DNA of 32,437 nt from assembly GCA_004322435.1 (NCBI GenBank), contig SCTT01000210.1:1-32437 (forward strand), in the 5' to 3' direction. Under the pieces are notes generated by a model. The model was not told the origin of the DNA. It saw only the letters and a program-made list of their open reading frames with translations, and did not search any database. This document shows, one piece after another, positions 5,685 to 30,121 of the stretch (position 1 is the first letter of the stretch; each line of letters starts with the position of its first letter). The stretch comes from a bacterium. Its GTDB lineage: Bacteria; Elusimicrobiota; Elusimicrobia; UBA1565. Made by a program: the position numbers and the translations under genes.

Positions 5685-8600
5685 ATGAAACTCTTAAGCG
5701 CGGCACTGTCGTCCTTCATCCTCCTTACCTCGCCCGGGCTCGGCGCCACGGAGGCTTTTGCACAGGTCCTCCGCTCGGCCCCCGTCTCGGGAACGCCCGT
5801 CGTGCCCGCCGTGCCGCTCCACATCCCCGCCGCGACGTCCTTCACCCCCACCCTCTCCGCCCCCTCTTTGGCCCTGCCCTCCGCCGCCGCGCCGCGCCTG
5901 GCCGCACCGGCCTCGCCGGCCGCCGTGAACGCCGCCCTGCCCGCGCGCGCCGCTCTCGCGGCCCCGGTGTCGGCCGCCGTCATCGCTTCGCCCGTCCGCG
6001 CCGCCGTCAACGCCGCCATTCCCGCGGCCCCCGAGGCCAAGCCCGAGACCGCGCTCGCGACCCTCTCCGCCAACGTCGAGACCCTCGGGAAGACCGCCGC
6101 CCCGTCGCAGGGCGCCTTGCTCCAGAATTTCTTCACCGGCTCGCGCTCCTGGGGCGCGGTCAACGCCGTCGTCGAGGCGACGCCCGGCTCCGAGCAGTCG
6201 GGCCGCTCCTCCCTCGAAGCCCCGGCCACCCCCGAGTCCTACGAGCCGACGGCCGTCGACTCGAAGAAGCCCTTGGCCGAGCGCAAGGCCGCCGTCGCCG
6301 CCATCGCCAAGTTCAACACCGACGCCGCGAAGGCCTCCCTCGTGCGCGTCGGCGAGGCGAACCCCCAGGGCGGCGCCGAGGACTACGAGGTGCACCGCGC
6401 CGCGTACAAAGCGCTGGCCGAGGGCTACGGCGAGGTGCGGAGCCTGCGCGCGGTGAGTCCCGAGCACAAGGCCGCCTTGGTGAAGAGCCTCAAGGACAAC
6501 AAGCCCTCCTTGGCCGTCTTCGACTACGACGACACTCTGCAGAAGTGGAAGGAGAAGGCCGCCCCCGACACGGGCGCCGCCCTCAAGGCCGCCGCCGACC
6601 AGGGCGTCTCCGTCGCCATCCTCACCGACCGCCCCGCCATCCAGGACGGGGGCTCGCCCACCGTCATCGATTCGCTCTCGGAACTCACCGCCGAGCAGAA
6701 GGCCGCCGTCACCCTCGCCGGCCGCGCGGGCGCCGAGATGGTGCAGTACGATTCCAAAGGCCGCGACGTCGTCGTCGACCGCATGCCGGGCTGGACCGAC
6801 GGCGAGCGCAAGGCCATCGACGCCGTCGCCGCCATCATCAAGGAGAAGTTCGGCACGGCCGAGCACGACGGCAAGTCCGGCAACGTGACCGAGTACGGCT
6901 TCTTCCAGCTCTTGCCCGTGCGCGCGCCCCAGTCGGTCCTAGACGAGGCGGTCAAGGTCGCGACCCTGGAGCTCGCCAACCGCGGCATGACGGGCCTCCA
7001 CATCTTCGCGCGCTACGCGAAAAGCATGGACGACCCGCCCTACCTGCAGGCCTCCAAGGTCAACAAGGTCCGCGGCATGAACATCCTGCGCGGCCAGCGC
7101 GCGGCCTACGAGCGCTTGAAGGATTTGCGCGCGCTGGGCCTGCCGGCCAAGTACGCCGCCAAGGCGCTGTCCTGGCTCAAGCGCATCCCCGAGGCGCAGA
7201 TCCCCGCCGCCAAGACCCTCGTCGTGGGCGACCAGTTCTTCGCCTCGCGCAACACGGACGCCGACATGGCCAAGGCCGCCCCCGGCGCGCTGGTCCTCTC
7301 CGTCGGCGCCAAGGCCGACCCGCGCCTCGAGAACATCTTCGTCTGGCCCTCGGAAGGCCACACGGCGACCCAGGAAATCCTCGGCGCCCTGGGAACCAAG
7401 GCCGACGACGGCGGCTTCAACAAGAAGGCGACCATCGGCCTCTTTTTAGGCCGCACGCTCTCCATCGGCTCCTTCGTCCTGACCGCCATCGCCTACCCCT
7501 ACGTGGCCGCGCCCGCCGTGGGCTGGGCCACCTTCGGGACGTTGATGGCGCTCGGGCCCTTGGCCGCCATCGCGACCGGCCCGCTCAACGGGGCCCTGGC
7601 CGACAAGTTCTCGGCGCGCACCTCGATGACCATCAACATGGTCATCCGCGCGGTGCTCGCGATGGCCCTGCCGACCTTCGCGTACTTCGGCATCATCAAC
7701 TTCTGGACGCTGCTCATCGCCTCCATCGCCAACGGCTGGGCGCTCTCGGCCACGATGACGACCGAGACCGCCTACGTGCGCCGCATCGCGGGCAAGCACC
7801 AGAACGCGGTGCAGGCCCTCATCTCGGTCAACTTCGTGGCCCTGCAGGTCATCTTGGGGCTCTTGGTCGGCATCGGCTCCTACATCGACGCCTGGGCGCC
7901 CACCACGCCCTTCCTCATCTCGGCCATCGCGCACGCCGCCATCGCGGCGCCCTTGATGTGGTTCACGATGCCCTCGGACAAGCCCGCGGGCAACGCCGCC
8001 GCGAAGACCCAGCAGAAGGCTCCCTTCTCGGAGCGCGCCGGGACCTTCGCCAAGAAGTACTGGAAGGAGGCCCTCATCACCGCCGCCTCCATCGGCTCCT
8101 ACGCGTTCTTCCACTCGGCGCTCCCCATCGCCGGGGCGCTCTTCTATTGGGTCCTCAACACGGACACCGTGAAGGCCCTGCGCGCCGGCGAGTTCCGCGA
8201 GGTCGCCCCGCGCGAGAAGGAAATCGAGGCGGCCTTGAAGGACAAGGCCGGCGAGGACACGCCCGAGACCGCCGCCCTCAAGAAGGAAGCGAAGACCTGG
8301 AAGGGACGCCAGTTCAAGACCGTGCTCTACTCGGCCGGCCAGGCCGTGATGACCTACCCGTTCCAGAACTTCGCGCTGCCGCTCATCGCGGTGCTCCTCG
8401 TCGGCACGGCGGGCAAGGGCCTGCTCTTGGGCAAGCTCCTGGGCGCCATGTACTTCGGCAACCTCATCGCCAACTCCTCGCAGGCGGCCCTCCCCGAGAT
8501 CCGCCTGCCCCTCGTCGGCCGCGTCCCCGGCCAGCGCATCGTGCAGGGCCTCGTGCTCGGCATGGCCGCGGCCTGGGTCTACACCGGCCTCGTCCCCGGC

Positions 8601-9089
8601 AGCATCCTCGCCGCGGCGGCGGCCGTCGCCATCGCCTCGGGCCTCATGTGGCTGTCGGGGCGCATCACCAACAAGGGCTGGATCAAGGCGCTGGGCTTTG
8701 GCCTCGCGGGCATCGCCCTCCCGGCGGCGGTCTGGGCGTTCCCGGCGCTCATCCCGTTCATGGACGTGCAGACGGCGCTCTTCTTGGCGATGCTCAACTA
8801 CGGCCTCTTCGTGGGGCCCTCGTCGGTGTCGCTGGGCATCTACCAGCAGGGCAACACCAACAAGGCGCACCTGGGCAAGGTGTTCGGGACGGGCTCCTCG
8901 TTCTTTAACACCTTCAACTCCATCGGCTACGGGCTCCTGGCCCTGGCCGCGAGCGCGTTCACGCCGGCCTTCCCGGCGATGTTCGTGCCGATGCTGGGCC
9001 TCTACGCCTTGGGCGGGTACCTGTTCTTCCGGGCCCCCAAGAACCTGCCCGGTCTTCCTGAAAACTCGTTTAAAAAGAACGAGAAATAG
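5685..9089 (+). CDS. Signal peptide + Pro/Ala-rich linker + HAD-like domain + MFS-like transporter fusion (1134 aa)
   Basis: MKLLSAALSSFILLTSPGLGATEAFAQVLRSAPVSGTP...; HAD motifs LAVFDYDDTL, ILTDRP, LVVGDQFFASRNTDADMA; then many TM segments (FLGRTLSIGSFVLTAIAYPYV...GPLNGALADKFSARTSMTINMVIRAVLAM). Confidence 0.8.
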   Translation: MKLLSAALSSFILLTSPGLGATEAFAQVLRSAPVSGTPVVPAVPLHIPAATSFTPTLSAPSLALPSAAAPRLAAPASPAAVNAALPARAALAAPVSAAVIASPVRAAVNAAIPAAPEAKPETALATLSANVETLGKTAAPSQGALLQNFFTGSRSWGAVNAVVEATPGSEQSGRSSLEAPATPESYEPTAVDSKKPLAERKAAVAAIAKFNTDAAKASLVRVGEANPQGGAEDYEVHRAAYKALAEGYGEVRSLRAVSPEHKAALVKSLKDNKPSLAVFDYDDTLQKWKEKAAPDTGAALKAAADQGVSVAILTDRPAIQDGGSPTVIDSLSELTAEQKAAVTLAGRAGAEMVQYDSKGRDVVVDRMPGWTDGERKAIDAVAAIIKEKFGTAEHDGKSGNVTEYGFFQLLPVRAPQSVLDEAVKVATLELANRGMTGLHIFARYAKSMDDPPYLQASKVNKVRGMNILRGQRAAYERLKDLRALGLPAKYAAKALSWLKRIPEAQIPAAKTLVVGDQFFASRNTDADMAKAAPGALVLSVGAKADPRLENIFVWPSEGHTATQEILGALGTKADDGGFNKKATIGLFLGRTLSIGSFVLTAIAYPYVAAPAVGWATFGTLMALGPLAAIATGPLNGALADKFSARTSMTINMVIRAVLAMALPTFAYFGIINFWTLLIASIANGWALSATMTTETAYVRRIAGKHQNAVQALISVNFVALQVILGLLVGIGSYIDAWAPTTPFLISAIAHAAIAAPLMWFTMPSDKPAGNAAAKTQQKAPFSERAGTFAKKYWKEALITAASIGSYAFFHSALPIAGALFYWVLNTDTVKALRAGEFREVAPREKEIEAALKDKAGEDTPETAALKKEAKTWKGRQFKTVLYSAGQAVMTYPFQNFALPLIAVLLVGTAGKGLLLGKLLGAMYFGNLIANSSQAALPEIRLPLVGRVPGQRIVQGLVLGMAAAWVYTGLVPGSILAAAAAVAIASGLMWLSGRITNKGWIKALGFGLAGIALPAAVWAFPALIPFMDVQTALFLAMLNYGLFVGPSSVSLGIYQQGNTNKAHLGKVFGTGSSFFNTFNSIGYGLLALAASAFTPAFPAMFVPMLGLYALGGYLFFRAPKNLPGLPENSFKKNEK

Positions 9090-9165: not shown

Positions 9166-11445
9166 ATGAGGCTGACCCGCATCCTGCTCGCGGCCCTGGC
9201 GCTCTTGAGCGCGCCGGGACAGGGCGCCTACGCCCAGTTCGCCAAGGTCGCCCCCGTCCGGACCGTCCCCGCCGCCCCTGCGGCGCCGCTCCAGCTCCGC
9301 CTTCCGCTGAATTCGGCCCCGACGGGCCTCGCCGTACCCGGCCTGGCCGCGCCGTCCCTCACGACGCCTTCTCTGCCGACCCCCAGCGTCTCGGCCAAGG
9401 CCGTCGCCGTCGCGGCCGCCGCGGCGCCCGCCCAGGCCGCCGCTTTCCCCCTCTCCCGCGTTCGGGAGAGGGATGGGGTGAGGGCATCGGTCGGGCTTCC
9501 CTCACCCTACCCTCTCCCGCAAGGGCGGGAGAGGGAAAATGGAAAAGAGCAAGCCACGGCAAAGGCGACGCTGGAGAAAGGAGCCGCTTCGCTGAATGTG
9601 CGCGGCATCGTGCCCGCCGCCGCCCTCGACGCCTTCTTCGAAGGGGCGAAGGCCCGCGCCGAGAATTCGAATGCGGTCGCCCCTGAAGGCCAGCCGAGCC
9701 GGACCGCGCGGCCGGGCCTGGCGCCCGCCGCCGAGCCCGCCCCGGCTCCGGCCCCGACCGTCGCGGCACCCCAAACCGCCGAAGACAAGCCGAACGTCAA
9801 GGCGCTGGCCGGGCTCTTCACCTCGCGCACCGTCTCCATCGCGAGCTTCATCCTCACCTCCATCGCCTACCCCTTCCTCGCCGTGCCGGTCGTCGGCTGG
9901 GCGGGCTTCGGCGCGCTGATGGCCTTCGGGCCGCTGGCCGCCGTCGCCACGGGCCCTTTAAACGGCCTCATCGCCCAGCGCCTGTCGGCGCGCAAGGCCA
10001 TGGCCATCAACGCCGGCATCCGCGCCGCTCTTTCGCTGGTGCTGCCCGTAGCGGCCGGCTTCGGCTTCTTGAACTTCGGGACCTTGCTCGTCGCTTCGGT
10101 CGCCAACGGCTGGATCATGAGCTCGGTGATGACGGTCGAGGGCGCGTACCTCAAGAAGCTCGCCGGCGAGAAGGCGCTCGGCACGGTCAACGGCCTGGCC
10201 TGGATGAACTACCTGGCCATCCAGGTGGTGCTCGGCCTCATCGTGGGGGTCGGCTCCATCGTCGACAAGTGGGACCCCTCGGCGGCCTTCTACATCTCGG
10301 CGGCGGTGCACGCCCTCCTGGTCCTCCCCATCCTCTGGTTCACGATGCCGGACCTCGCCCCGCCGGGCCAGCGCCGCATCCCCTCCCACGTGGGCCTGTT
10401 GGCGCAGGCCGTCGCCTTCTTCAAGTCCAACGCCCTGCCGCTCGGCGCCGCGGCGCTCGGCGTCGGCGCCTACCTAGCCTTCTCGACCACCTTGCCCCTC
10501 ATCGCCGCCATCCTCTACTGGGTGACGCGCTCCAAGTCCTTCAAGGACGTGTGGAGCGGCGCCGCCCGCGCCGACTCGCCCGACGAGGCCGTGCTGCGGG
10601 AGAAGGTCGCGGCCGCGGCGGACGGCCCGGAGAAGGCGCGCTACGAGTCCGAGCTGGCCCTGCGCGCCAAGCGCCTGCGCACCGCGATGCTCTACCTGTC
10701 GCTCGCCGCCCTCTTCCTCTTCCCGCTCCAGTACTTCGTCCTGCCCGCCGCCGCCACGGCCCTGGCGGGCGCGGCCGGGGCGGCCGGGAAGGGCCTCATC
10801 CTGGGCCGCCTCTTGGGCGCCCTCTTCCTCGGCAACCTCGTCTCGGTGGCCGCCCGCGCGAAGCTCCCGGTCCTCAAGCTGTTCGGCCGCTCCTTTAAAG
10901 GAGAGCGCCTCGTGCAGGGGGCCGTCATGGCGCTGGCCGCGGGCTGGTCGCTCGCAGCTCTCGCGCCGGGCAGCCTCGTCGTGGCGGCCGCCGTCGCCGC
11001 CGCCGCGCTCGGCCTCATGGCTCTGGCCGCCCGCCTCACGGACACCGGCTGGGTGAAGCTCATGGGCCCCGGCTTCGCCGCGGTGGCCCTGCCCTACCTC
11101 GTCTGGACCGCCGGCCTCTTCCCGGGCTTCGGCCCCGCGGCGGCCCTGACCGTGAGCCTCCTCGTCGCCGGCATGGTCTACGGCCCGGCCTTCGTGGCCT
11201 TGAACACCACCTTCCAGCGCTGGGTCTCGCCGGACAAGATGGGCCCGTCCATCGGCGCGCAGAGCTCCTTCTTCAACGGGGCGCTGTCCTTGGGCTACGG
11301 CGTCATCTCGCTGGCGGCCTCCTTCGCCCCTCTGCCGGGCCTCTTGGGCTGGATGACGCTCGCCTACGGCGTCCTCGGCATCCTCTTCTGGCTGGCGCCG
11401 CGCTTTTTGCCCGGCCTGCCCGCGACGATGTTCCACAAAAAGTAA
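9166..11445 (+). CDS. Signal peptide + Pro/Ala-rich linker + MFS-like transporter (paralogue of 5685 gene, no HAD domain)
   Basis: MRLTRILLAALALLSAPGQGAYAQFAKVAPVRTVPAAPAAPL...; membrane half aligns with the preceding gene (LFTSRTVSIASFILTSIAYPFLAVPVVGWAGFGALMAFGPLAAVATGPLNG); both end in LPGLP..F.K. Confidence 0.8.
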   Translation: MRLTRILLAALALLSAPGQGAYAQFAKVAPVRTVPAAPAAPLQLRLPLNSAPTGLAVPGLAAPSLTTPSLPTPSVSAKAVAVAAAAAPAQAAAFPLSRVRERDGVRASVGLPSPYPLPQGRERENGKEQATAKATLEKGAASLNVRGIVPAAALDAFFEGAKARAENSNAVAPEGQPSRTARPGLAPAAEPAPAPAPTVAAPQTAEDKPNVKALAGLFTSRTVSIASFILTSIAYPFLAVPVVGWAGFGALMAFGPLAAVATGPLNGLIAQRLSARKAMAINAGIRAALSLVLPVAAGFGFLNFGTLLVASVANGWIMSSVMTVEGAYLKKLAGEKALGTVNGLAWMNYLAIQVVLGLIVGVGSIVDKWDPSAAFYISAAVHALLVLPILWFTMPDLAPPGQRRIPSHVGLLAQAVAFFKSNALPLGAAALGVGAYLAFSTTLPLIAAILYWVTRSKSFKDVWSGAARADSPDEAVLREKVAAAADGPEKARYESELALRAKRLRTAMLYLSLAALFLFPLQYFVLPAAATALAGAAGAAGKGLILGRLLGALFLGNLVSVAARAKLPVLKLFGRSFKGERLVQGAVMALAAGWSLAALAPGSLVVAAAVAAAALGLMALAARLTDTGWVKLMGPGFAAVALPYLVWTAGLFPGFGPAAALTVSLLVAGMVYGPAFVALNTTFQRWVSPDKMGPSIGAQSSFFNGALSLGYGVISLAASFAPLPGLLGWMTLAYGVLGILFWLAPRFLPGLPATMFHKK
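9449..9535. repeat. In-frame 87-bp palindromic REP/MITE-like element
   Basis: Hairpins CCCTCTCCCG/CGGGAGAGGG (9449-9472) and CCCTCTCCCGC/GCGGGAGAGGG (9510-9535), plus GGGTGAGGG/CCCTCACCC (9476-9484/9499-9507). Confidence 0.85.
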
Positions 11446-12191: not shown

Positions 12192-12220
12192 TTGACTTGC
12201 CCGAACACCGGGGCTACACT
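12192..12220 (+). promoter_or_regulatory. Sigma70-type promoter TTGACT-17 bp-TACACT
   Basis: TTGACT 12192-12197, TACACT 12215-12220. Confidence 0.65.
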
Positions 12221-12271
12221 AGCGTCGCACCCCGCCGAGTAGGCGTCCGCAGTCCGCGGCCGCCGTCGTTT

Positions 12272-13747
12272 TTGCTTTACAACACCCTCCGCAGAGCCCT
12301 CCTCGGGGCTTTGGCGGCGCTCGCCTGCTCGGGAGCCGCCGAGGCCGCGCCGTCGTTCACCGCGGAAGAGACGGTCTTCTTCAGCCGGACGTCGTCTATG
12401 TCGGTGCAGTCGGTGGTGACCGTCCCGGGCGGGTTCCGGATGTACGTGACGAGCGGCCCGTACCGCGTCCTCTCGGCCACCTGCACGGACCAGGTCGCCT
12501 GGGGCCTCGAGAGCGGCATACGCCTGACGACCTCGGTCGTCGCCAACGACGTCTCCTCCATCACCTACCTCTCGGTCGTGGCCTCGACGGCGGTCGGCGG
12601 CGGCTGGCGGATGTACTACGTGGGCATCGACGCTGGGGGCCTCTACCGGGTCCTGAGCGCGACCTCCACCGACGGCCTGGCCTGGGGCAAGGAGCAGGGG
12701 ACCCGGCTCCAAAACAACGGGGGGCAGGGATTTATCGGCAGCCTGTCGGGCTTCTCGGTGTCGAACACCGAACGCCGCCTCTACTACGTGGCCGACCGCG
12801 ACGGCTTGAACAACGCCTCCCGCTACGCGGTCTTCGTCGCGACCTCGGGGGACGGCGGCCTCAACTTCGGCCCGGGCACGCTGGCCCTCTCGGCCAACGC
12901 GTACGCGGTCTCGGCGACGACGATGACGAGCGGCAAGACCCGCATCTACTACACCTCCCCCTTGACCGGCTCGACGACGGCCAGCCAGGTCCTCTCGGCG
13001 ACGGCCTCTGACGGGCTCTCGTTCACCTCTGAGAGCGACGTGCGCCTGTCGACGACGGCCTCCGTCTCGGGCTTCCGCGGCCTGGTCGTCCTGCGCTCCA
13101 CCGACAGCTTCCGCTGGCGGATGTACACCGACTACATCATCGGCGGCACCACCGAGACCTTCATCTCGCACGCGCTGACGAGGACCCCGGTCGTCGAGAG
13201 CTTCTCGCCCGCCGCCGTCGACAAGGGCCGCACCGGCGTCCCGTACACGCTGACCGGCGAGATCTTCTCGCCGACCCCCACGGTGTCCTTCGTGCTGGGG
13301 GCCTCCACCTACAACGCGACGACCGTCGTGCGCGCCGACGACACGTCGCTCTCGGGCGTGTTCGACACGCTCAACCGCTACCAGGGCGTCTACAACGTCG
13401 CCGTCGTCAACGCCGACGGCCGGCCGGGGTTCCTGTCGAACGCCCTCGAGATCCGGCTCCCCCCCGGCAGCGTCACCATGCTCGACAACCTCTTCCGCCC
13501 GACCAAAGGCGGGACGACCAAGGCCACCGTCGAGCTCTTCGAGGCCGGGGAGGTCACCGCCCGCCTCTACACCGTCGACGGGAACCTCGTCGCGACGCTG
13601 TTCCAGGGGACGATGCCCGCGGGCCAGACCCAGTTCACCTGGAACGGCCGCACGCCGGCCGGCAGCGTGGTGGCCAGCGGGGTCTATCTGCTCAACGTCG
13701 TGGGTCCCAACCTCAACACCACCGAGCGCGTGGTGGTCGTCAAGTGA
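12272..13747 (+). CDS. Exported beta-propeller-like protein with IPT/TIG-like and C-terminal FlgD-Ig-like domains
   Basis: TTG start at 12272 lies downstream of the promoter and gives LYNTLRRALLGALAALACSGAAEAAPSF; repeats (RMYVTSGPYRVLSAT / RMYYVGIDAGGLYRVLSAT); C-term VTARLYTVDGNLVATLFQGTMPAGQTQFTWNGRTPAGSVVASGVYLLNVVGP. Confidence 0.7.
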   Translation: MLYNTLRRALLGALAALACSGAAEAAPSFTAEETVFFSRTSSMSVQSVVTVPGGFRMYVTSGPYRVLSATCTDQVAWGLESGIRLTTSVVANDVSSITYLSVVASTAVGGGWRMYYVGIDAGGLYRVLSATSTDGLAWGKEQGTRLQNNGGQGFIGSLSGFSVSNTERRLYYVADRDGLNNASRYAVFVATSGDGGLNFGPGTLALSANAYAVSATTMTSGKTRIYYTSPLTGSTTASQVLSATASDGLSFTSESDVRLSTTASVSGFRGLVVLRSTDSFRWRMYTDYIIGGTTETFISHALTRTPVVESFSPAAVDKGRTGVPYTLTGEIFSPTPTVSFVLGASTYNATTVVRADDTSLSGVFDTLNRYQGVYNVAVVNADGRPGFLSNALEIRLPPGSVTMLDNLFRPTKGGTTKATVELFEAGEVTARLYTVDGNLVATLFQGTMPAGQTQFTWNGRTPAGSVVASGVYLLNVVGPNLNTTERVVVVK

Positions 13748-14685
13748 GGGCCGCCCTCCTCCTCGCCGCCGTCCTCTTCGCCGCGCCCCGCGCCCATGCC
13801 GAGGCCGGGCGCAGCGCCGCGGCTTTCCTCAAGCGCGCGCTGGGCGCGCGCGCCGCGGCGATGGGCGGCGCCGGGACGGCCCTCGTCGACCCCGGCCCCG
13901 GCGCGCCCCAGTTCAACCCCGGCGGCCTGGCGCGCGTCGCGCGCCCGTCTTTGACGAGCGCCTACCTCAACGGCTACGGCGGCGTCACGCACGGCTACGC
14001 GGCCTACGCGCACCCCCTGCCCTACGGCGTCCTCGGCACGGGCCTGCTCTACTTCAACGCCGGCGACATAGGCCTCAACCTCTCGGACGGGACGAAGCGC
14101 ACCGTGACCTCCGAGGAGGACCTGGCCTGGACCTTGAGCTACGCCGTCCCGCTGCCTTTCGGGGTCAGCGTCGGCGGAAGCTACCGCTTCCTGCGCATGG
14201 AGCTGGCCGAGACCGCCTCCGCCGTCTCCCACCAGGGCGACGCGGGGGCGCTCTGGCGCACCCCGGTCAAGGGGCTCTCGCTCGGGGCCGCCCTCCAATA
14301 TTGGGGCCCCGACATCGTCTTCGAGGAGGCCGGCGACCCGCCGCCCAAGACCTTCCGCTACGGCGCCGCGCTGCGCCTGCCCGACATCGACGCGGCCAAG
14401 GTGGACCCCACGGTCGACTTGGCCGCCTTCGACATGACGGTGGCCGGCGACGTGGTGCAGACCGTCTTCGAGTCCCCCTATCAGCGCCTCGGGGTCGAGC
14501 TGGGCCTGACGCCGTCCCTCATGAGCCGCATCGCCCTGCGCTTCGGCTGGGTCTTCAACCGCTTCGCCGAAGGCTTCACCCTCGGAGCGGGCTTCAAGAC
14601 GGGGCGCTATACCTTCGACTTCGGTCACGGCGACACCAAGACGATGAAGGGGCTGACCAGCGCCTCGTTCACGGTGGAGTTTTGA
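13744..14685 (+). CDS. PorV/PorQ (UPF0164)-like outer-membrane beta-barrel protein
   Basis: GTG start overlapping previous stop; signal peptide; AAAFLKRALGARAAAMGGAGTALVDPGPGAPQFNPGGLARV is typical of the family; C-terminal FTVEF. Confidence 0.75.
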   Translation: MRAALLLAAVLFAAPRAHAEAGRSAAAFLKRALGARAAAMGGAGTALVDPGPGAPQFNPGGLARVARPSLTSAYLNGYGGVTHGYAAYAHPLPYGVLGTGLLYFNAGDIGLNLSDGTKRTVTSEEDLAWTLSYAVPLPFGVSVGGSYRFLRMELAETASAVSHQGDAGALWRTPVKGLSLGAALQYWGPDIVFEEAGDPPPKTFRYGAALRLPDIDAAKVDPTVDLAAFDMTVAGDVVQTVFESPYQRLGVELGLTPSLMSRIALRFGWVFNRFAEGFTLGAGFKTGRYTFDFGHGDTKTMKGLTSASFTVEF

Positions 14686-20526: not shown

Positions 20527-21519
20527 TTATATCGCTCCCATGCGGTTGGGCGGCCAGTAGATGACCCAGGCCTTCCCTTTGACGTACTTCTCGGCCACCG
20601 GGCCCCAGAAGCGGGAGTCGCAGGAGCGGTCGCGGTTGTCGCCCATCATGAAGTAGGCGCCGGCCGGCACCTTGACCGGTCCGAAGTGGTCCTTCATCGT
20701 GTCGCCGAGCTTCAAATCGAGCTGCCCGCCCTGCCAGAGCTCCTGGTACAGCGCGGGCGGCGGGGCCAAAGCCGGCGGGTCGCCGCGGTAGGAGTCGAGG
20801 AACTGGGTGAAGGGCTCCTTCCCGAGGACCTCCCCGTTGCGCACCAGCACGCCGCCGCGGACCTCGAGGGTGTCGCCGCCCACGGCCACGACGCGCTTGA
20901 TGAAGTCCTTGCCGAACTGGGAGCCGCCGCAGTGCTGGGCCTCGGGGTCCTCGGTGGGGAAGCGGAAGACGATGATGTCGCCGGCCTTCACGGGCTTCAA
21001 GCGCAGCACGCGCTTGTCGGTGAACGGGATGCGCACGCCGTAGACGAACTTGTTGACGAAGAGGTGGTCGCCGATGCGCAGGGTGCTCTCCATCGAGCCG
21101 GAGGGGATCTTGAAGGCCTGCACGAGGAAATACATGAGGAGCGAGGCCAAGATGACCGCGGAGTAGACGGTCTCCGCCCACTCGAGGTCCTCGTTGAGGA
21201 AGTAGCGCCGCTTCTCGGCGTCGGACCCGGTGGACCAGGCGCGCCAGAGGCCGAAGGCCGCCAAAAGCGCGCCGCCGGCCAGGCCCGCCCCGACCTCGCG
21301 CAGCGACAAAGAGCCCGCCGAGGCGCCTACGAACTTGAGGCGGCTCTCCACCGAGAGCACGGCGATGAGCATCACCGAAAAGCCGGCCAGCCCCAAGAAG
21401 AGCGCGTGCCACAGCGAGGCGGGGAGCTTCTCGTCGAGCTTGCCCGAGGCCGTCCAGCGCTTGGTGAGCCAGGCGTAGCCGAACATCGCCACGCCGATCC
21501 AGAAAAGCCGTGCTTCCAT
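20527..21519 (-). CDS. lepB: Signal peptidase I
   Basis: IPSGSMESTLRIGDHLFVNKFVYG, FIKRVVAVGGD, FMMGDNRDRSCDSRFWGPV. Confidence 0.92.
   Translation of the reverse strand: MEARLFWIGVAMFGYAWLTKRWTASGKLDEKLPASLWHALFLGLAGFSVMLIAVLSVESRLKFVGASAGSLSLREVGAGLAGGALLAAFGLWRAWSTGSDAEKRRYFLNEDLEWAETVYSAVILASLLMYFLVQAFKIPSGSMESTLRIGDHLFVNKFVYGVRIPFTDKRVLRLKPVKAGDIIVFRFPTEDPEAQHCGGSQFGKDFIKRVVAVGGDTLEVRGGVLVRNGEVLGKEPFTQFLDSYRGDPPALAPPPALYQELWQGGQLDLKLGDTMKDHFGPVKVPAGAYFMMGDNRDRSCDSRFWGPVAEKYVKGKAWVIYWPPNRMGAI

Positions 21520-24008: not shown

Positions 24009-24012
<4 letters not shown>
22210..24012 (-). CDS. lepA: Elongation factor 4 (LepA)
   Basis: [81 protein letters not shown]. Confidence 0.97.
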
Positions 24013-25732
<1,720 letters not shown>

Positions 25733-25736
<4 letters not shown>

Positions 25737-26011
25737 TCTTCGTCGAACTTCCTGTTGAAAAGCTCTTCGAGGCGCTTGAGCGCCTCCTTCTCGTCGGGGC
25801 CGTCCACGACGACCTTCACCTGCTCCCCGCAGGCCGCGGCGAGCATCATCAGCCCCATCACGCTCTTGCCGTTGACGACGACCTCCTCGCCGGCGTGGTC
25901 CTTCGTCACGGTCACCTTGCAGCGGTGGCGGCTGGCGGCCTGCACGAACAAGGAGGCGGGCCGCGCGTGCAGTCCCAGCCGGTTCTTGACGACGAAGGTC
26001 TTCTCCGTCAT
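25733..26011 (-). CDS. ptsH: PTS phosphocarrier HPr
   Basis: MTEKTFVVKNRLGLHARPASLFVQAA...VNGKSVMGLMMLAAACGEQVKVVVDG; active-site His and regulatory Ser regions present. Confidence 0.95.
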
Positions 26012-26808
26012 GCGCCCGCCGCCGACAGGACGGCCGAAGCGAGGGCCAGCGCCGAATAGACGCCCAAGGAGCCGTGCCCGCGCAGGCGCAGGCCGAAGGC
26101 GCCGGCGAGGACCGCGGCGTTCGCCCAGCTCGGCGTGCCGCCGAAGGGGGGCACCGCGAGCGCGGCCGCGGCGGCGAGCGCGGCCCCCGCGAGGCCGATG
26201 CGCCGTACCAGGAGCGCCTTCTCGGGCCAGCCCAGGCGCTTGAGCTCGGCCGGCAGGCCCTCGCCGCGCTCGTAGCCCAGGCGCGGCCCCACCCAGCGCG
26301 TCCACAGGGCCGGGGCGTTGAAGGCGGCCAGGCCGAGCGCGGTGCCGAAGGCCACCGGCGACGGAGCGCCGAGCGTCCACAGCGCGGTCCAGGCGACGAG
26401 GGTCCACGCGGCGGTGGCGGGGCGCAGGGTCCCCCAGTAGAACGGGTCGCCCAAGGCGGCCAGCGCGGAGCCCAGGGCGCGCTTCAAGCGCTCGACGCGC
26501 TGCACCGCGGCGGCCTCGTCGGCGTCCTCGGTGGCGCGGGCGACGTCCTCCTCGAGGACCAAGGTCGCGCCGAGCGCGAAGCCCGCCATATGGGGCTCGG
26601 TGTTGAAGAAGCCCAGATGGCGCATCTGCGCGCGCCGGCGGCGTTCGGGGTCCCGGTGGACCCGCGCGAGGCCGGGCTCGAGCGCGTAGAGGAAGCCCAG
26701 GTTCTGCATCCCCTCGAAGTTCCAGCCCGCCTGGATGAGCATGGAGCGCCAGAAGAGCGTCTCGCGCTCGCCGGCGGGGAGCGTCCGGGGCGCGGCGACG
26801 GCGGTCAT
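26008..26808 (-). CDS. PTS mannose-family EIID component
   Basis: RSMLIQAGWNFEGMQNLGFLYALEPGL, HLGFFNTEPHMAGFALGATLVLEE, RLKRALGSALAALGDPFYWGTLRP. Confidence 0.93.
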   Translation of the reverse strand: MTAVAAPRTLPAGERETLFWRSMLIQAGWNFEGMQNLGFLYALEPGLARVHRDPERRRRAQMRHLGFFNTEPHMAGFALGATLVLEEDVARATEDADEAAAVQRVERLKRALGSALAALGDPFYWGTLRPATAAWTLVAWTALWTLGAPSPVAFGTALGLAAFNAPALWTRWVGPRLGYERGEGLPAELKRLGWPEKALLVRRIGLAGAALAAAAALAVPPFGGTPSWANAAVLAGAFGLRLRGHGSLGVYSALALASAVLSAAGA

Positions 26809-27422
26809 CGCGAGAGCCTCTGCAAGAGCGACCCGAGCGCCAAAAAGGGCGCCGCCTGCCACACGCGCTCGAGCCCCGGCGAGACGGACCCGGGCAGCCA
26901 CGTCAGGGCGCGGTCGAGCGTCGGCCCCAAAAGCGCCACCGCGGCGTAGACGAAGAGGGCCGTCGCCGCCAGGTGCACGCCCACCGAGCGCGCCCACAGG
27001 CGCCGCCACGGCACGACGCCCTCGGTGACGACCGCCTCGAGGGCCCGGGCCGTCAGCGCGGCGCGCCAGGAGCGCACGCGAGCCTCGACGCGGCCGTGCA
27101 GGGCCCCGAGCGCCAGCCCGACGGGCAAGGACAGCGCGGGGGGGATGCCGGAGGGCCCGGCGGAGAGGAGGACGGCGGTCGCGGCGGCGACGGCGCCGTT
27201 GGGCGGCATCACCGAGCCCACGGGGAGCTCTTCCAAGCAGAACACCTCGACCAAGGCCCCGAGGCCGGCGCCGAGCACGGGGTCGCCGGCGAGCCAGCCC
27301 ACCAGCGGGCCGACCACGAGCGGCCGCGAGACGAGCCACTGGCCCACCAGAACCGTGTCCGCCTCGAGGACGGCGACGCTCGCCGAGAGGGCCGGCAGCC
27401 CCACGCTCAGCCAGGCGCTCAT
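26805..27422 (-). CDS. PTS mannose/sorbose-family EIIC component
   Basis: LEADTVLVGQWLVSRPLVVGPLVGWLAGDPVLGAGLGALVEVFCLEELPVGSVMPPNGAVAAA. Confidence 0.9.
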   Translation of the reverse strand: MSAWLSVGLPALSASVAVLEADTVLVGQWLVSRPLVVGPLVGWLAGDPVLGAGLGALVEVFCLEELPVGSVMPPNGAVAAATAVLLSAGPSGIPPALSLPVGLALGALHGRVEARVRSWRAALTARALEAVVTEGVVPWRRLWARSVGVHLAATALFVYAAVALLGPTLDRALTWLPGSVSPGLERVWQAAPFLALGSLLQRLSR

Positions 27423-27901
27423 GCGCGGGCCTTGAGCGCCGCCATGACGTCGAGCGGGGCTTCGGAGGGCACGGCGCGGCCCTCGACGCGCACGCCGCGG
27501 CCGTCGAGAGCCTCCAGGCAGTCGATGTCGGCCGAGTCCAGGTAGATGGCGCGCCCGAGCTGGACGGTGCCCGCCGCGTAGTGGAGGCCGCCGACGTTGA
27601 CCGAGGAGAACGGGACGCCCGCCTCGTGCAGGGCCAAGACCTCCTGGGGCCCGGGCGCGAGGACCAGCACGCGCTCGGGCGAGGCGGCGGCGTTCTTCAG
27701 GATGGACGGCGCCGCCGCGACGGTCAACACGTCCAAGGCCACGGCGGGCGGCACGCTCAGCTCCATCAGCGCGCGCGTCGTGGGGTCGGAGGCGGCCTGG
27801 TCGCAGACCACCGCGACGCGCTGGGCCTTGAGCACCGGCAGCCATCCTTCCACGACCTGGCCGTGGATGAGGCGGTCGTCGATGCGCACCAAGGTCAGCA
27901 T
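27419..27901 (-). CDS. PTS mannose-family EIIB component
   Basis: MLTLVRIDDRLIHGQVVEGWLPVLKAQRVAVVCDQAASDP. Confidence 0.94.
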   Translation of the reverse strand: MLTLVRIDDRLIHGQVVEGWLPVLKAQRVAVVCDQAASDPTTRALMELSVPPAVALDVLTVAAAPSILKNAAASPERVLVLAPGPQEVLALHEAGVPFSSVNVGGLHYAAGTVQLGRAIYLDSADIDCLEALDGRGVRVEGRAVPSEAPLDVMAALKARA

Positions 27902-28302
27902 CGCTTGGCCGTGAGCATCTTCTTGACGTCGGCCACCGCGCGGCGGCCGCACTCGATCATCCGCTCGGCGAGGGCCTCGGGCGTGGACCCCTCGCGGTTG
28001 TTGAAGGCCGAGACCAGCATGTAGAGGTTGACGCCGCTGACGACGTGGGCGCCGGGCAGGTCCTTGACCACCGGCAGCACCACGTTGCAGGGCGTCCCGC
28101 CCGGCATGTCGACGGCCACGACGAGCTCCCCGCCGCCGAGCTCCGAGACGGCCTCGAGCACCCGCCGGCGCACCTCGTCGACCGGCAGGCGCGGCGAGAC
28201 GCCGACGCAGCGGACGTTCTTCTGGGGGCCGACGATGCTCTCGGCGGCCTCCACCAGATAGGCGCCGAAGTCGCCGTGCGTGATGACGAGCAGGCTCACC
28301 AT
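27895..28302 (-). CDS. PTS mannose-family EIIA component
   Basis: MVSLLVITHGDFGAYLVEAAESIVG, VVAVDMPGGTPCNVVLPV. Confidence 0.92.
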   Translation of the reverse strand: MVSLLVITHGDFGAYLVEAAESIVGPQKNVRCVGVSPRLPVDEVRRRVLEAVSELGGGELVVAVDMPGGTPCNVVLPVVKDLPGAHVVSGVNLYMLVSAFNNREGSTPEALAERMIECGRRAVADVKKMLTAKRC

Positions 28303-29159
28303 CAGCGCTGGACGTCCCGGTGGAACTCGCGCGCCGCGTAGCCGTCCTCGCGCAGCACCCCCGCGACATGGCGGGTGATGTAGACGCTGCGGTGGCGGCC
28401 GCCCGTGCAGCCGACGGCGATGGTCAGGTAGGACTTGCCCTCGCGGATGTAGAACGGGACCAACGTCTCGACCATCTTGATGAAGCCGCCGAGGAAGGGC
28501 TTCGTGATGGGGTTCTTCATCACGTATTTCGCCACGGCCGGGTCGAGGCCGGTCTTGCGGCGCAGCGCGGCGACGTAATAGGGGTTCGGCAAGAACCGCA
28601 CGTCCATCACCAAATCCGCGTCCCGCGGCAGGCCGTACTTGTAGCCGAACGAGACGACCGAGATCTGCATCTCGGCGCGGCGCTTGGCGCCGATGGCGAT
28701 GGACACCTGCTCCTTGAGCTCGCCCAGGGCCAGGTTCGTCGTGTCGATGACCTTGTCGGCGAGCCCCTTGATGTCGGCCAAAAAGCGCCGCTCGGCGCGG
28801 ATCGACTGCAGCAGGTTCTTGCCGAGCGGATGGCGGTGGCGGGTCTCCGAGAAGCGCTGTACCAGCGCCTCCTCCGAGGCATCGAGGAAGAGGACCTTGG
28901 TCTCGACGCCCTTCTGGCGCATCACCGCCGCGAACGCCTCGAGGTCGCGGCGGAAGTCGCCGCCGCGGATGTCGAGGCCGAGCGCGGTGAGGCCGTAGTG
29001 CGGCGCGCTCAGCACGAGCTCGCCGAACTTGCCGAGCAGGTCCACCGGCAGGTTGTCCACGCACACGAACCCCAGGTCCTCGAAGATCTTCAAGGCCTGG
29101 CTGCGCCCCGCCCCCGAGAGGCCGGTGATGATGAAGAGGCGGCGGCCCGGGCGGCTCAT
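28302..29159 (-). CDS. rapZ: RNase adapter protein RapZ (YvcJ family)
   Basis: RRLFIITGLSGAGRSQALKIFEDLGFVCVDNLPVDLL, LNPYY-like FLPNPYYVAALR, IAVGCTGGRHRSVYI. Confidence 0.96.
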   Translation of the reverse strand: MSRPGRRLFIITGLSGAGRSQALKIFEDLGFVCVDNLPVDLLGKFGELVLSAPHYGLTALGLDIRGGDFRRDLEAFAAVMRQKGVETKVLFLDASEEALVQRFSETRHRHPLGKNLLQSIRAERRFLADIKGLADKVIDTTNLALGELKEQVSIAIGAKRRAEMQISVVSFGYKYGLPRDADLVMDVRFLPNPYYVAALRRKTGLDPAVAKYVMKNPITKPFLGGFIKMVETLVPFYIREGKSYLTIAVGCTGGRHRSVYITRHVAGVLREDGYAAREFHRDVQR

Positions 29160-30121
29160 GCGCGCCGTCCTTGGCCCATGCGGGCCAACAGGCGCCGGTT
29201 GAAGTCCTCGGCCGACGACGTCCCGCCCTGGCGCAGCCGCTGGTTGAGCGCGGCGACCTCGATCAAGACGGCGAGGTTCCGGCCGGGGCTCACCGGGATG
29301 CGCACCAGCGGGACCTCGACCTCGAGGATGCGGGCGGTCTGCTTGTGGAGGCCCGTGCGGTCGTAGACCGCCTCGGGGTTCCAGGCCTCGAGGTTCACCG
29401 AGAGGCCGATCGAGGAGTGGGCGAGGATGGAGCCGACGCCGAAGAGGAGCTTGACGTCGATGATGCCCAGGCCCCTGACCTCGAGGTAGTGGCGCAGCGG
29501 CTCGGGGCAGGTGCCGACCAGCACGTCGCCGTGCTTGCGGCGCACCTCGACGATGTCGTCGGCGACGAGGATGTGGCCGCGCTTGACGAGCTCGAGCGCG
29601 CACTCGGACTTGCCGATGCCGGCCTCGCCCTGGATGAGGACGCCCAGGCCGTACACGTCCACCAGCACGCCGTGCAGGCGCACGAACGGGGCGAGGCGCT
29701 CCTCGAGGAGGAAGGTCAGCTCGCCGATGAAGTCGGCGGTCTCGAGCGCGGTGCGCAAAAGCGGCACCTTGAACTTCCGGCAGGCCTCGGCCAGCGCCGG
29801 CGGCACGCGCAGGCCGCGCGTGACGACCAGGCAGGGCACCGCCTGGTCGGCCAGCATGCGCTCGAGGTTGGTCGCGAGGCGGTGCGCGTCCGCCTGCACG
29901 AGGAAGGCCTGCTCGCCGCGCCCGATGATGTGGATGCGCTCGGCGCGGAAGTGCGCGGGGAACCCCGCCAAGGCCAGCCCGGGGCGGTTGACCTCGGGCG
30001 TGGTGATGCGCCGCCGCAGCGCGCCGCGCCCGGCCACGAGCTCCAGGCGCAGCCGGCGCTTGTGGTCCTTGAGGAGGTCGCCGACCGTCAGCGACCGCCC
30101 GGACGGGACGGGGGGGATCAG
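29156..30121 (-). CDS. hprK: HPr kinase/phosphorylase, probable CTG start
   Basis: VYGLGVLIQGEAGIGKSECALELVKRGHILVADD; in-frame N-terminal SLTVGDLLKDHKRRLRLELVAGRGALRR lies upstream of first GTG (30037); CTGA overlap with hpf stop at 30121. Confidence 0.88.
   Translation of the reverse strand: MIPPVPSGRSLTVGDLLKDHKRRLRLELVAGRGALRRRITTPEVNRPGLALAGFPAHFRAERIHIIGRGEQAFLVQADAHRLATNLERMLADQAVPCLVVTRGLRVPPALAEACRKFKVPLLRTALETADFIGELTFLLEERLAPFVRLHGVLVDVYGLGVLIQGEAGIGKSECALELVKRGHILVADDIVEVRRKHGDVLVGTCPEPLRHYLEVRGLGIIDVKLLFGVGSILAHSSIGLSVNLEAWNPEAVYDRTGLHKQTARILEVEVPLVRIPVSPGRNLAVLIEVAALNQRLRQGGTSSAEDFNRRLLARMGQGRRA

Follow-up and report, generated by a model that had tools for sequence, protein, structure and literature searches.

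The HAD phosphatase YigL of E. coli releases sugars during glucose-phosphate stress; these leave the cell through an efflux pump whose identity is described as unknown (PMC4021124). As to protein sorting, the YSIRK/GXXS signal peptides contain a lineage-restricted motif found in many unrelated staphylococcal and streptococcal proteins (PMC5962339, PMC11898559). The DNA analyzed here, a stretch of 32,437 nucleotides referred to as the window, encodes a single polypeptide comprising (i) a signal-peptide-like segment, (ii) an Ala/Pro-rich linker, (iii) a HAD domain, and (iv) an MFS-type transporter (Table 1), a fusion found repeatedly within one Elusimicrobiota order. A literature search limited to open-access papers returned no description of either the signal or the fusion.

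The frame is read without a stop into a product of 1134 residues, the signal-peptide-like N-terminus of which, MKLLSAALSSFILLTSPGLGATEAFA, is followed by Q after the predicted cut (written with a slash below), whereas the linker terminates in an amphipathic motif. The coding frame is considered real because a full-length homologue, 70% identical and displaying the same N-terminus, occurs in another MAG, obtained from Elusimicrobia in groundwater. A wrong frame or a spurious ORF in GC-rich DNA is ruled out by the full-length conserved homologues, and a separately translated transporter, initiated inside the ORF, by the absence of a Met near the first transporter helix. The earlier note had described a signal-peptide-like start, HAD motifs, and an MFS transporter within this ORF: translation and domain searches confirm the layout, all four catalytic motifs are found, the structure predictions it proposed as a check (AlphaFold, Foldseek) return both HAD and MFS folds, and the same domain order, which it proposed to search for elsewhere, recurs across the order. 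The note overlooked the linker of ~150 aa, the helical segment comprising residues 183-272, and a tandem HAD-less paralogue located directly downstream.

Table 1. Coordinates of the fusion ORF, its parts, and neighboring genes in the window.
Feature	Residues or product	Position	Strand	Remarks
Whole ORF, signal + linker + HAD + MFS fusion	1134 aa	5685..9089	+	
Signal-peptide-like segment	1-26	5685..5762	+	Motif SPG-x7-AQ; predicted cut AFA/Q
Ala/Pro-rich linker	27-182	5763..6230	+	Without predicted membrane helix
Conserved helical segment preceding HAD	183-272	6231..6500	+	Conserved DYE..R
HAD phosphatase domain (putative), C2-type cap	about 274-570	6504..7394	+	
HAD motif I, FDYDDTL	D280 (nucleophile), D282 (acid/base), T284	6519..6539	+	D280, D282, T284 invariant
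HAD motif II, ILTDR	T314	6618..6632	+	Homologue alignment
HAD motif III, SKVNK	K461	7053..7067	+	K461 invariant
HAD motif IV, GDQFFASRNTD	G515-D516...D525	7227..7259	+	Homologue alignment
MFS-type transporter	579-1120	7419..9044	+	N-in/C-in charge pattern
Extra hydrophobic hairpin between MFS halves	794-824	8064..8156	+	Compare POT structure matches
Tandem paralogue, signal + linker + MFS, without HAD	759 aa	9166..11445	+	
Signal peptidase I		20527-21519	-	
PTS enzyme I, sorbose-type EIIC and EIIB, RapZ		24009-29603	-	

The linker-coding part of the paralogue contains two REP-like palindromes (window 9449-9472 and 9510-9535; CCCTCTCCC...GGGAGAGGG), with 108 exact copies in the genome compared with 2 for the reversed control, and translated REP-like copies (PLPLAGEG-like) are present in the linkers of other proteins carrying the same N-terminus. 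In addition, two genes are adjacent at window 12197-14685, one encoding a protein whose C-terminus is FlgD-Ig/type IX sorting-like, the other a PorV/PorQ-family member, a pair that hints at type IX-like secretion.

Judged by its motifs, the HAD domain is probably a catalytically intact C2-cap phosphatase. The DxDxT, T, K, and GD...D residues are invariant in an alignment of 13-14 homologues, 35-69% identical to the 1134-aa protein in the HAD region. The AlphaFold model of the domain (pLDDT 93.5) displays a Rossmann-like core in which the cap sits between motifs II and III. Its best Foldseek matches, with identities of about 14-15%, are to the IMP-nucleotidase ISN1 and to enzymes resembling phosphomannomutase. 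The curated HAD HMM cutoffs (Hydrolase_3, HAD-IIB) are not reached by the 1134-aa protein (13-15 bits versus 20.9), and the domain is therefore not placed in a named HAD subfamily; a relative (L028) scores above the same cutoff, at 27.6 bits.

The transporter half, for which about 14 helices are predicted, matches Pfam MFS_1 (E=1.9e-11, 44 bits versus a cutoff of 33.4). The model comprising both HAD and MFS regions has a pLDDT of 86.6, and its Foldseek matches are ISN1 and MFS transporters, including POT/PepT. POT proteins contain an extra hairpin between the two transporter halves, and the modeled fusion transporter seems to possess a POT-like hairpin in the same place. The closest transporter HMMs correspond to H+ antiporter and multidrug efflux types, with the TIGR00900 (H+ antiporters) cutoff far from reached, and no solved structure matches the transporter significantly in sequence.

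The fusion protein or parts of it are matched in 27 of 38 genomes (its own and 37 relatives), the genomes compared being MAGs, part of them fragmented. At the scale of the phylum, the HAD profile matches 13 of 199 genomes, 11 of them belonging to the order, counting the genome of the window itself, and two to a sister family of the class, with the HAD-MFS order present in many genera and an MFS-only homologue in UBA9639. The supported branches of a tree of the transporter half force at least six changes of HAD presence; one close pair, L019/L020, differs in this respect, where an assembly error is possible. Since the HAD domain is repeatedly absent, the transporter does not depend on coupling. 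HAD proteins that share the start but lack the transporter also occur (L030 and the L016 upstream ORF), whereas the 'HAD-only' candidates G001:C44, G004:C53, and G030:C44 were discarded as open frames at or near contig ends. A further arrangement is a chain of 1656 aa (L049) in which a similar signal precedes HAD, nucleotidyltransferase, MFS, and another HAD.

Many unrelated proteins of the relatives start with the same signal and linker, a presequence of the form [STA]-P-G-x5-A-x-A/Q at near-fixed spacing, followed by an Ala/Pro-rich stretch; the consensus of the aligned carriers reads K-x-L...AALL-x-x-S-P-G-x-x-A-x-x-A-x-A-Q. The xPG element is present in 39 of 42 carriers and AxAQ in 29, the distance from P to Q being exactly 10 in 25 of these 29. 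Profile A4, built from hand-picked carriers that match by construction, gives 1-24 matches in each of the 24 order genomes searched (E <= 0.1), the single weak matches in G019 and G021 being possibly due to chance. At E <= 0.001, among 100 phylum genomes, it matches six of six order genomes and, weakly (E about 5e-4), the sister-family genome G098, with none of the other 93 matched. When 400 kb of a sister genome was screened loosely for a signal plus linker, five candidates and one probable lipoprotein came up; the A4 counts are preferred because the strict spacing pattern gave just one false positive in the same 400 kb. A generic signal-peptide match is ruled out by the other signal-like starts in the window, which lack the motif, and by the 0/93 result. 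The best reading of the signal and Ala/Pro linker is a lineage-specific presequence.

The carriers, up to about 24 per order genome and mostly large, comprise (i) HAD, MFS, Clp-type AAA+, PPK2, glycogen-debranching enzyme, TLC/MFS-like transporter, nucleotidyltransferase, and Endonuclease I proteins, several of them with the looser signal-plus-linker form instead of the strict motif, and (ii) tandem ABC exporters, VWA/TPR, ATP-grasp, M48, PspA/IM30, and subtilase with M50. In the tandem (double) ABC exporters L126, L134, and L140, a signal peptide and roughly 250 aa of Ala/Pro linker come first. In the sister family, G098 contains an open frame of 17,755 codons (G098:C5:8767-62031, +; L086-L089) that starts with LLILIALLITTPGLDFYQVFAQ, displaying the same presequence motif at the same spacing. 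This giant frame comprises about 62 membrane-helix-like segments, PLD, S8, M48, M50, M14, and Clp-type AAA domains, L-amino acid ligase C-terminal, glycosyltransferase, and MGDG-synthase-like domains, and a fusion-type HAD at residues 11348-11680; another open frame, of 10,571 codons in G187, has two HAD matches. The overlapping content suggests a common system behind the G098 frame and the separate carriers. A tentative extension, which we hold possible with the balance somewhat against it, is that the order and its sister family use a private sorting presequence by which transporters, proteases, AAA+ proteins, and other NTP-using enzymes reach a particular compartment or membrane site, keeping the active domains from the ATP-free periplasm, with much of the toolkit fused into a giant protein in the sister family. 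If so, a presequence common to ABC exporters, Clp ATPases, proteases, and transporters, and at odds with the topology expected of them, would point to a sorting route not yet described, in a lineage without cultured members. Signal-peptide calls on such proteins may mislead localization.

The side of the membrane faced by the HAD domain is addressed by the charges of 24 aligned transporters. A net positive charge is found in 92-100% of them for loops 2-3 and 4-5, the loop from helix 6 to the hairpin, and the C-terminus, and in 67% for the segment preceding helix 1, whereas loops 1-2 and 3-4 are nearly uncharged and loop 5-6 is slightly negative. This pattern predicts an N-in/C-in transporter with both ends cytosolic. 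The HAD domain most likely faces the cytosol, as predicted from the K/R-rich loops on its own side, its direct junction with the first transporter helix, and a linker in which neither averaged hydropathy nor a rough insertion score reveals an additional membrane helix. The N-terminus disagrees, its sequence fitting a cleavable signal peptide with conserved AxA/Q: a cleaved Sec signal would place the linker and HAD outside, which is incompatible with the charge-pattern prediction. The charge pattern is preferred over the signal because of its uniformity across the family. A cytosolic HAD is independently supported by the tandem ABC exporters with the same start, which need cytosolic ATP for their ATPases, so that the same signal and linker cannot export what follows there; likewise, hydropathy and insertion scores reveal no extra helix before their membrane domains.

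The reading we favor, at roughly even chances, is an inner-membrane MFS-type transporter of ~14 helices with a C2-cap HAD phosphatase in cis on its cytosolic N-terminal side, the phosphatase feeding the transporter. The HAD domain would dephosphorylate an intracellular small phosphometabolite of the sugar- or nucleotide-phosphate class, the transporter would move the neutral dephosphorylated product, most likely outward, and the signal and Ala/Pro linker would target the fusion without exporting the HAD domain. That ABC exporters and further ATP-dependent proteins bear this presequence argues for the arrangement, as do the closest transporter HMMs, of H+ antiporter and multidrug efflux types, and the PTS genes, ~15 kb from the fusion ORF, lend it slight support. 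The earlier note had instead placed the HAD domain in the periplasm, behind a cleaved signal, where external substrates would be dephosphorylated for uptake by the attached transporter. The textbook-like signal, which on its face predicts export of the linker and HAD, the HAD-only proteins sharing the start, and the presence of Endonuclease I, normally exported, among the carriers all point that way; however, such a topology would invert the transporter against the uniform positive-inside pattern, with no helix in the linker to rescue it by either score, and the ABC exporters with the same start could not function thus, which makes it improbable. The folds, intact active site, and signal-like start stand, as does the recurrence of the domain order, whereas the periplasmic HAD coupled to uptake proposed by the note is not supported, the predicted location being cytosolic.

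A fusion serving co-localization only, within a modular multidomain system and with a HAD domain that does not act on the transported substrate, appears rather unlikely. The HAD domain's repeated loss or gain on the transporter tree, together with HAD-only and rearranged proteins, including the HAD-NTase-MFS-HAD chain and the giant ORFs, would fit such modularity, but the catalytic residues remain invariant among divergent homologues and the HAD-MFS order is retained in many genera. For the favored cytosolic phosphatase-transporter, coupling of phosphatase and transport becomes testable in a single polypeptide, with relevance to sugar-phosphate detoxification.

Compared with the C2-cap HAD phosphatases (HAD-IIB/Cof type, ISN1, phosphomannomutase, PfHAD1), the HAD domain shares the four motifs, the cap position, and the Foldseek fold, but displays low identity, lies below family cutoffs, and is fused to a transporter. 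The transporter, in turn, shares with MFS proteins (MFS_1; TIGR00900; POT/PepT by fold) the overall fold and a motif-A-like GALADKFSAR loop, and with POT the extra central hairpin, differing in its 580-residue N-terminal extension, a score far under the TIGR00900 cutoff, and the lack of significant matches to solved structures. The likeness to YigL and sugar efflux in E. coli resides in a HAD phosphatase yielding a neutral sugar for export; the E. coli components are separate proteins, whereas here one polypeptide would carry both functions and act on a putative substrate. A fused version of YigL-type phosphatase and efflux is plausible by analogy. The YSIRK/GXXS motif is absent from the fusion protein and the aligned carriers, making its likeness one of analogy only: in both cases a lineage-restricted motif inside the signal is common to many unrelated proteins, but here the motif and its position are different (S/T/A-P-G before the cleavage site) and the carriers include polytopic membrane proteins and ATPases.
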